This document shows positions 5,552-7,741 of a DNA stretch of 8,404 nucleotides, piece by piece (positions within the stretch are counted from its first letter, which is position 1; each line of letters starts with the position of its first letter). Source of the stretch: a bacterium (GTDB lineage Bacteria > JAJVIF01 > JAGGVT01); contig JAGGVT010000217.1 of NCBI GenBank assembly GCA_021157815.1, positions 1 to 8,404 of the forward strand, read 5' to 3'. The position numbers and the translations under genes were made by a program. Under the pieces are notes generated by a model. It saw only the letters and a program-made list of their open reading frames with translations, was not told the DNA's origin and searched no databases.

Positions 5552-6486
5552 GTGAAGAAGCCCCTCCCAAAATAATGCGGCGCAAACCGGTTACAGACCA
5601 TCCAATGTCTGACCTTTTAAGGATAGATCGTTTTCCACATGTCTGGTGCCCAACCTGCGGTCTTGGCACGGTTGTAAACTGCCTTGGCACGTCGATTTTA
5701 AAAACTCCGGAAGTCGATCCCAATCACATTGCTGTTGTCAGTGGAATTGGCTGCGCGGGACGCGGCGCCGGTTATCTGAGATTTGACAGTTTCCATACTA
5801 CTCACGGGCGTGCTCTTCCGTTCGCAACCGGTCTCTCGTTGAGCCGTCCTGACATGAAAGTAATCGTATTCAGTGGTGATGGCGATATCGTATCAATTGG
5901 CGGAAATCATTTAATTCATGCCGCGCGTCGAAATATGGACATGGTTGTTATCTGCGTGAATAATTTCATCTACGCCATGACCGGCGGACAGACCGCGCCA
6001 ACAACGCCAACTCACGCCAGAAGTTCTACCAGCCCGTTTGGAAACAGCGATCCACCGTTCAATCTTCCCTATCTCGCGGCAAGTTGCGGAGCCACTTATG
6101 TCGCGCGATGGACTGCTCTCCATGTAAGACGCCTGCAGAAATCAATCAGTGAAGTTTTAAAGAAAAAAGGATTCAGCTTCATCGAGGTTATTTCTCCTTG
6201 TCCCACTCTTTATGCGCGATTGAACAATCTGGGCACCGGTCTTGATTTGATGAGATTCTATCACGACAATTCAGAGATCAATAACGACGCGGATTTAAAA
6301 AGCCTCGATATAAATTTTAAAGGCAAAATAATCTGCGGGAAATTTGTTGACCTGGATAGTCCAACCTACCGAGACAGATATGATGAAGAGAATGAACATA
6401 TCCTGGGCGATAAATTTATTCCCTACGATCTGCCGGATTTTCCACATATAAGCAGCAACTCCGACAAGGAAAAGATTGAAAAGTGA
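5548..6486 (+). CDS. korB: 2-oxoglutarate ferredoxin oxidoreductase, beta subunit
   Basis: This is the beta chain (312 aa) of the Kor complex. It carries the TPP diphosphate-binding (PP) domain and, by family knowledge, one [4Fe-4S] cluster. Likely cluster ligands are C34 and C37 (WCPTCG), C69 (GIGCAGR) and C218 (SPCPT). TPP/Mg2+ binding is marked by SGDGD at 109-113 and NNFIYAMTGGQ at 138-148. The segment FDSFHTTHGRALPFATG at 79-95 is typical of 2-oxoglutarate and related beta subunits. No membrane or export signal is present. Length is near family norm, with a polar tail (about 275-312) rich in Asp, Glu and Lys. The ATG overlaps the korA stop by 4 nt, and the gene's own stop overlaps the korC GTG by 4 nt, so the three proteins are made in concert, as expected for subunits of one enzyme. 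Confidence 0.94.
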   Translation: MSEEAPPKIMRRKPVTDHPMSDLLRIDRFPHVWCPTCGLGTVVNCLGTSILKTPEVDPNHIAVVSGIGCAGRGAGYLRFDSFHTTHGRALPFATGLSLSRPDMKVIVFSGDGDIVSIGGNHLIHAARRNMDMVVICVNNFIYAMTGGQTAPTTPTHARSSTSPFGNSDPPFNLPYLAASCGATYVARWTALHVRRLQKSISEVLKKKGFSFIEVISPCPTLYARLNNLGTGLDLMRFYHDNSEINNDADLKSLDINFKGKIICGKFVDLDSPTYRDRYDEENEHILGDKFIPYDLPDFPHISSNSDKEKIEK

Positions 6487-7043
6487 AAAGTGAAATACGA
6501 ATATCCGGTCTCGGCGGCCAGGGTGTAATCAAATGCGCGTATATCATCGGCAAAGCCGCCAGTATTTTTGATACAAAGTTCGCCACGATGACACAGAGCT
6601 TTGGGCCTGAAGCGAGAGGATCATCGTGCAGCGCGCAGCTGGTTATCAAAGATGACCACGTTGAATATCCATATCTGCAGAACACGCAGATTCTTGTCAG
6701 CATGTCGCAGGACGCCTATACAAAATTTGAAACGGAAGTGGATGATGAAGGCCTTATATTGATTGATGACAGCCTTGTGCATCCAACCCCTCCGAGAAAA
6801 AATATCAGGCAGTATGCAATACCCGCAATGAAATTCGCGGAGGAAACAGGCAACAAAATTGTCTTAAATATAATCATGTTCGGTTTTTTTGTCGCGATGA
6901 CTGAAGGATTACTTGATTATGACGCTGCTGTAAAGGCGGTTGAAACATCCGTTTCCAGTTCGACAATCGATATGAACATGAAAGCGTTTAATAAAGGGTT
7001 TGAATACGGAAAGTCCTTGCTGGAAAAAGAGGCACTTCAATAA
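6483..7043 (+). CDS. korC: 2-oxoglutarate ferredoxin oxidoreductase, gamma subunit
   Basis: This is the gamma chain (186 aa) of the 2-oxoacid:ferredoxin oxidoreductase, a single catalytic-domain family protein. Motifs include GLGGQGV at 9-15, TQSFGPEARGSSCSAQLVI at 37-55 and LNIIMFGFF at 128-136. Length is normal. The start is GTG 6483, overlapping the korB TGA by 4 nt, with AAGGA 12 nt upstream, so translation probably depends on coupling with korB. The last residues are unusual in origin: the TAA at 7041-7043 lies inside the left terminal repeat of a 209-bp MITE-like element. If the element is removed at the flanking direct repeat, the frame continues ...LLEKEG and stops at TAA 7254-7256. 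The insertion thus changed the tail from G to ALQ and left the catalytic domain intact. Confidence 0.93.
   Translation: MKSEIRISGLGGQGVIKCAYIIGKAASIFDTKFATMTQSFGPEARGSSCSAQLVIKDDHVEYPYLQNTQILVSMSQDAYTKFETEVDDEGLILIDDSLVHPTPPRKNIRQYAIPAMKFAEETGNKIVLNIIMFGFFVAMTEGLLDYDAAVKAVETSVSSSTIDMNMKAFNKGFEYGKSLLEKEALQ
7022..7030 (+). repeat. Left copy of probable target-site duplication
   Basis: GGAAAAAGA lies inside the korC 3' end, one base from the left terminal repeat. The identical 9-mer follows the right end at 7241-7249. It is A-rich, so chance is not excluded, but its exact placement supports transposition. Confidence 0.6.
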
Positions 7044-7240
7044 ATTGTGTGGGTTATTTGTCCCCCCGTAAAAAAAGTGGCTTTCCCCAATCATGGGGTA
7101 CGTCCACATGAGGCTTCAAATCTGATGTTATCAATATACTATGCTGTAAACTCTTATTTATACTGTATTTATTCACCTGGTTGGGACAGGCCCCTTTTTT
7201 TACTCAATCTAAACTCGACCCACACGATTTATTGAAGAGC
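7032..7240. mobile_element. MITE-like 209-bp element at the korC 3' end
   Basis: The ends 7032-7054 and 7218-7240 are inverted repeats matching at 21 of 23 positions. The core on the left is CTTCAATAAATTGTGTGGGT and the right copy has C for the second T of AATT. GGAAAAAGA flanks both sides directly (7022-7030 and 7241-7249). Extending by one mismatched base makes 10-bp repeats abutting both ends, as a target-site duplication would. A second subterminal inverted pair sits at similar depth: 7068-7088 and 7183-7203, about 17 of 21. The interior has no transposase and no credible ORF, so mobilisation would need an enzyme elsewhere. The family was not recognised. The element carries the korC stop codon. 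Confidence 0.75.
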
Positions 7241-7249
7241 GGAAAAAGA
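7241..7249 (+). repeat. Right copy of probable target-site duplication
   Basis: GGAAAAAGA directly abuts the right terminal inverted repeat. The following AGGATAA gives the inferred ancestral end of korC (Gly then stop at 7254-7256). Confidence 0.6.
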
Positions 7250-7266
7250 AGGATAACAGTTTGCAG

Positions 7267-7287
7267 CCCGGTTTCTCATTAACCGGG
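7267..7287. repeat. Perfect 7-bp hairpin (CCCGGTT/AACCGGG)
   Basis: CCCGGTT (7267-7273) pairs with AACCGGG (7281-7287) across a 7-nt loop. It begins 10 nt after the inferred ancestral korC stop. No T tract follows, so it is not a standard intrinsic terminator. It might protect the 3' end of the mRNA. Confidence 0.5.
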
Positions 7288-7313
7288 AAAATGGTGGTAA
7301 ATTTACGCAATAC

Positions 7314-7333
7314 CCCGGCAAAGGGATGCCGGG
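7314..7333. repeat. Perfect 6-bp GC hairpin
   Basis: CCCGGC (7314-7319) pairs with GCCGGG (7328-7333) across AAAGGGAT. No T tract follows. It may belong with the previous hairpin. Confidence 0.45.
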
Positions 7334-7375
7334 TTACATGAAAAACCGTTGTTATTATGGTTGTTATTATGCAGG

Positions 7376-7442: not shown

Positions 7443-7461
7443 TTCTTTGCTATTTATCATC

Positions 7462-7532
7462 TGGGTGCCGCCCACACATCACGTCTTTTTGTGATTTGTG
7501 GGTGAAATGCGTAACTTCGCTGCAAGCACCCA
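7462..7532. repeat. Nested inverted repeats, possible three-way RNA fold
   Basis: The outer pair is TGGGTGC (7462-7468) with GCACCCA (7526-7532), perfect. The inner pair is CCCACACATCAC (7471-7482) with GTGATTTGTGGG (7491-7502), 11 of 12. A third short stem GCG/CGC (7509-7511/7518-7520) can form between them. It resembles a small structured RNA or repeat element. No family was recognised. Confidence 0.5.
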
Positions 7533-7588
7533 TGCTACAAATCCGCAATGAATGGTATAGTCAGATATTGAAAATAAAATATTGAAAT

Positions 7589-7681
7589 CCGAGCCTCGAA
7601 CGTTAGTGAGAGGTATTGCGACAATATTCGCTTTCGAAAAACCTCTCACTAACCTTCGAGGCTTGGTTATTTACTTTTTTT
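7589..7681 (+). terminator. 26-bp-stem hairpin with T tract
   Basis: 7589-7614 pairs with 7641-7666, with one mismatch and one G-U in 26 positions. The 26-nt loop can form a small GCGA/TCGC stem. Downstream is TTGGTTATTTAC and then seven T residues (7675-7681). The complementary side is also T-rich on the - strand. It could stop transcription from kor in front of the lipoprotein promoter. The stem is far longer than an ordinary terminator, so a dispersed palindromic repeat is an alternative. Confidence 0.5.
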
Positions 7682-7741
7682 GTTTAAATCAATCGTGGAT
7701 TGTGGGTGAACTCCTTTTCTTAAAATACATCAACCCAGTTA

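Follow-up and report, generated by a model that had tools for sequence, protein, structure and literature searches.

In the stretch of DNA analysed here (8,404 nucleotides, called the window throughout), a korC-like gene ends inside the terminal inverted repeat of a short repeated element, which raises the question of whether its stop codon is the gene's own or was supplied by an insertion. We consider it highly probable that a transposase-mobilised, non-autonomous MITE-like element inserted at the end of korC with an 8-bp stagger and supplied the stop, and that the insertion was tolerated, only the non-conserved tail of the protein being changed. The coordinates of the features discussed are listed in Table 1.

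Table 1. Features of the window at the end of korC
Feature	Position	Strand	Basis or remark
korC-like gene, 2-oxoacid:ferredoxin oxidoreductase gamma subunit	6483-7043	+	Pfam POR PF01558, E 2e-29; ORF
Target duplication (8 bp), left copy, GAAAAAGA	7023-7030	unstranded	boundaries from aligned copies
MITE-like element, L end toward korC	7031-7241	+	211 bp; family alignment; multi-copy in own genome
Left terminal inverted repeat, GGCACTTCAATAAATTGTGTGGGT	7031-7054	+	inverted-repeat detection and family alignment
Current korC stop TAA, within left terminal repeat	7041-7043	+	sequence, ORF and joined-flank reading
Right terminal inverted repeat, family consensus GGCTCTTCAATAAATCGTGTGGGT inward	7218-7241	-	final base C->G here
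Target duplication (8 bp), right copy, GAAAAAGA	7242-7249	unstranded	boundaries from aligned copies
Leftover of older korC end	7250-7256	+	with GA of the duplication, GAA GGA TAA (Glu-Gly-stop)

A first-pass annotation of the window had described a 209-bp MITE-like element with terminal inverted repeats matching at 21 of 23 positions and flanked by a 9-bp direct repeat. The inverted repeat (23 nucleotides, 21 paired) was found at 7032-7054 and 7218-7240, and the element lies where it had been placed, but alignment of the family extends it to 211 bp. Likewise, the letters of the 9-bp direct repeat are present (GGAAAAAGA at 7022-7030 and 7241-7249), but the duplication of the family measures 8 bp and is perfect in the window; it appears as 9 bp because the terminal C of the element has been mutated to G at 7241. 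The joined-flank reading described below is unaffected by this shift of the boundary. As a single DNA strand the window element folds 5.6 sd better than shuffled sequences, and an Rfam search with it gave no match.

The genome that carries the window is represented by a 91% complete assembly of 3.2 Mb in 221 contigs, broken at repeats. Searches of this genome for the terminal repeats, which the first-pass annotation had proposed as a check, returned, spread over many contigs, 55 matches to the left end and 62 to the right end when up to 3 mismatches were allowed, compared with 0 for reversed control patterns, and about 60-70 copies of the window-type element are present, mostly with 80-93% identity to the window copy. 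Both ends were recovered for 52 copies among the fetched loci; of the remaining copies a single end was recovered, in most cases at the edge of a contig, where the assembly broke inside the repeat. The aligned family starts with GGCGCTTCAATAAA and finishes with TTTATTGAAGAGCC, its ends are of the GGCKCTTCAATAAA type, and the terminal inverted repeats are conserved at both ends throughout. Nearly all complete copies measure 190-221 bp and fall mainly into two length classes; a stretch near GGCATTCCCCGATAACGGGGTAC is missing from the class of about 192 bp but present in that of about 211 bp. The target duplication (8 bp, 90% A/T) is exact in 25 of the 52 complete copies and has at most one mismatch in 35, whereas an exact match was seen in 3 of the 2652 control pairings of left and right flanks from different copies. 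The element was thus found to be MITE-like as claimed, being short, without transposase coding capacity (no gene was called inside any of the 52 complete copies) and present in many dispersed copies with terminal inverted repeats and a duplication of fixed length. At three loci (L043:1008-1218, L049:1316-1519 and L092:189-380) the family ends enclose a different core, and the ends have therefore been combined with at least two interiors.

None of the 52 copies lies inside a called gene. Distances to genes are approximate, because the genes were called from a simple score of codon usage and the distances had already been viewed when the 30-bp limit was set; they placed a copy within 30 bp of the facing gene's 3' end in 21 of 45 cases versus 7 of 48 for the 5' end (Fisher p 0.0013). 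With the same approximate gene calls, copies in tandem gaps sit closer to the 3' end of the gene upstream, at a mean fraction of 0.34 (p 0.002 by simulation), and the right end of the element is the one turned toward a gene 3' end in 31 cases versus 14 (p 0.016); a rank test over all copy-gene distances was not significant (p 0.17). Taken with the strong single-strand hairpin, this bias in position and orientation could mean that the repeat is a selected gene-end element, such as a transcription terminator or an RNA-processing hairpin, and not a transposon. We regard that as unlikely, since the target duplications show transposition, many copies have their nearest gene 100-600 bp away or sit between two divergent genes, and the 3' bias follows from an avoidance of promoters. 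A terminator role for the window copy was not supported, as the terminator scan found nothing and the T-tract region gains no folding stability over shuffled sequences (z +1.4). The placement of the copies calls for no more than purifying selection against insertions into genes and promoters.

The favoured reading is that of an inserted transposable element, beyond which the older end of korC can be read. When the flanks are joined without the element, the empty site reads GAAAAAGAAGGATAA and the gene ends with CTG GAA AAA GAA GGA TAA, the stop falling at 7254-7256. The joined flanks encode ...SLLEKEG-stop versus the present ...SLLEKEALQ-stop, whose final codons GCA CTT CAA TAA are derived from the element; the Glu codon at the junction has passed from GAA to GAG and still encodes Glu. 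Three points of the first-pass annotation are reproduced here, namely that the korC TAA lies inside the left terminal repeat, that collapsing the direct repeat restores a frame ending LLEKEG-stop, and that the insertion recoded the gene end to ALQ while leaving the older end readable beyond the element. In the proposed sequence of events, a MITE-like element making staggered 8-bp insertions into A/T-rich targets would have placed one copy 7 bases before the end of the korC stop codon; the frame would then have run one base into the element and on through the Ala, Leu and Gln codons to the TAA of the terminal repeat. The protein would consequently end in EALQ instead of EG, which would have been tolerated because only a non-conserved tail was altered.

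Two further genes of the same genome end in copies of the element. In the first (locus L100), an ABC-transporter ATPase gene (280-1002, 240 aa) runs into the right end of a copy and stops there; this copy has a perfect AAAAATCA duplication on its two sides. Its joined flanks read NQSEGA-stop, and a single base separates that TAA from the ATG with which the following gene starts; this TAA-A-ATG layout is typical of coupled genes and therefore gives independent support for the joined reading, and the arrangement suggests that the element split an operon junction. The AAGGAG of the next gene is moved away from the end of the first gene by this copy (L100:940-1230). In the second (locus L026), a HEAT-repeat protein gene ends inside a copy without a duplication, and its older end is uncertain for that reason. 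Frames running into copies at some other loci (L029, L031, L011 and L034) are probably shadow frames and were left out, the codon-usage caller having selected none of them as a gene.

The frames of korC and of these two genes all pass into the element at an offset of one base from its boundary, and in that phase either end of the unmutated element reads GCN CTT CAA TAA (Ala-Leu-Gln-stop); a C-to-T change in the L100 and L026 copies brings the stop one codon earlier. All three gene-ending copies (3/3) are thus in the phase that stops after 10-13 bases, for which the chance is 1/27 for a named phase, and with n=3 a shared entry phase is suggestive only. Since both ends carry the same Ala-Leu-Gln-stop in one phase and all three genes use it, the terminal repeats might have been shaped as an adaptation of the element, their stop phase rendering insertions at gene ends harmless. 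This appears decidedly improbable: there are three cases, one of which (L026) is without a duplication, the other phases of the right end also stop within 27-38 bases, and A/T-rich ends carry stops anyway. As regards the first-pass proposal that an in-frame stop makes such elements tolerable at gene ends, the common phase speaks weakly for it, but purifying selection explains the wider pattern equally well. There is a slim chance that the portable in-phase Ala-Leu-Gln-stop of both ends is harmless in the last codons of a gene, so that gene ends would serve as a repeated safe site, even where coupled operon genes are separated without the first being broken.

That the tail of KorC can vary is indicated by its relatives. 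Alignment of korC with relatives, also proposed in the first-pass annotation, showed that KorC proteins of 26-58% identity have ends that vary just after a conserved K-A-F-x-x-G, with no common tail, and that none of the aligned KorC-like proteins of other genomes ends in ALQ. The closest genomes compared share only the class, the best KorC match being 58% identical, and a search of a contig collection for near korC relatives gave a single distant match. Because both length and sequence differ among the proteins beyond K-A-F-x-x-G, the change of tail is expected to be tolerable, and the intact frame together with the variable tails of relatives suggests that the enzyme is still functional. It is extremely improbable that the ALQ tail and stop are the old end of korC itself and the direct repeat a coincidence, for although the reading frame continues uninterrupted into the repeat, dozens of copies beside unrelated genes begin with GGCNCTTCAATAA, the duplication coincides exactly with the boundaries of the family and the ALQ ending is absent from the relatives.

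For the insertion of the MITE-like element, we infer the action of a mobilising transposase, which this genome either lacks or has in unassembled form. Transposases of five families (PF01610, PF12762, PF00872, PF13610 and PF03400, for ISL3, IS1595, IS256, IS6 and IS1) were sought in this 91% complete assembly, broken at repeats, and none was found. No transposase lies beside the four unpaired contig-interior ends that were read; such ends were considered as parts of a long autonomous element and rejected, being truncated copies (L089, L094, L096 and L098), while most other single ends are at contig edges. The ends and duplication of the element fit ISL3, which has an 8-bp duplication and GGCTCTT-type ends, but an ISL3 transposase is among those not found in the assembly. 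The parent element may have been lost, may be unassembled or may belong to another transposase family, and many described MITEs have no resident parent element. The first-pass annotation had also proposed to look for the element in relatives, but it was detected in none of three other genomes of the phylum, nor in 36 more distant ones. The end sequence had no match among viral contigs and the element none in a plasmid collection, and a literature search for the end sequences found none. Judged from these sequence comparisons, the family is apparently lineage-restricted.

Several other repeats were observed in the window. The segment at 7452-7533 is another dispersed repeat, with 93-100% similarity to parts of L030, of L105 and, at two places, of L037; in L037 a MITE copy directly adjoins a repeat of this type. 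Just past the older korC stop, 7265-7340 (AGCCCGGTTTCTCATTAACCGG ... GGATGCCGGGTTACATG) belongs to a small dispersed family with relatives in L098, L111, L089 and L004. Short repeats at 1-29 and 195-226 recur together, about 97% alike, in L053/L096 (one place), L035 and L021. At 7568-7687 there is an imperfect inverted repeat of 54 nt with 76% pairing and a loop of 12 nt; it finishes close to a T-run and is possibly a terminator or another element.

The present element is a new family, and repeats that supply gene stops are already known from BOX, ERIC/RU-1 and MITEAba12. In Streptococcus pneumoniae, the BOX repeat encodes the extreme 3' end and stop of 36 annotated genes, with no strong sign of truncation (PMC3049150). 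BOX is likewise interspersed and MITE-like and favours the 3' sides of genes, but it is modular (boxA/B/C) and of other sequence, whereas the element described here has a fixed length of 190-211 bp, 8-bp duplications and a readable empty site (PMC3049150). An enterobacterial ERIC/RU-1 repeat has joined an amidase gene at its 3' end and removed the normal stop; as in the present case the element provided a new tail and stop beyond the conserved domain, but RU-1 measures 127 bp and gives a long tail of about 35 aa, whereas 3-4 residues are added here (PMC2759123). In Acinetobacter, 31 bases of MITEAba12 are fused to a gene and create its stop. It too is a bacterial MITE with A/T-rich target duplications; unlike the present element, it is 113 bp long, has 9-bp duplications and a parent, ISAba12, and strongly truncated the gene (PMC6382973).

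Apart from the detail of the boundary, the insertion at korC very probably took place as first described, and the stop phase of the ends as the cause of tolerability is a suggestion from small numbers. The general picture is unchanged, because repeats that supply stops had already been documented. Within it, korC provides a clean case from a poorly sampled phylum in which the old and new gene ends can both be read, and the same genome holds a second independent case in the ABC-transporter ATPase gene; small repeats are here seen to alter the tails of proteins.
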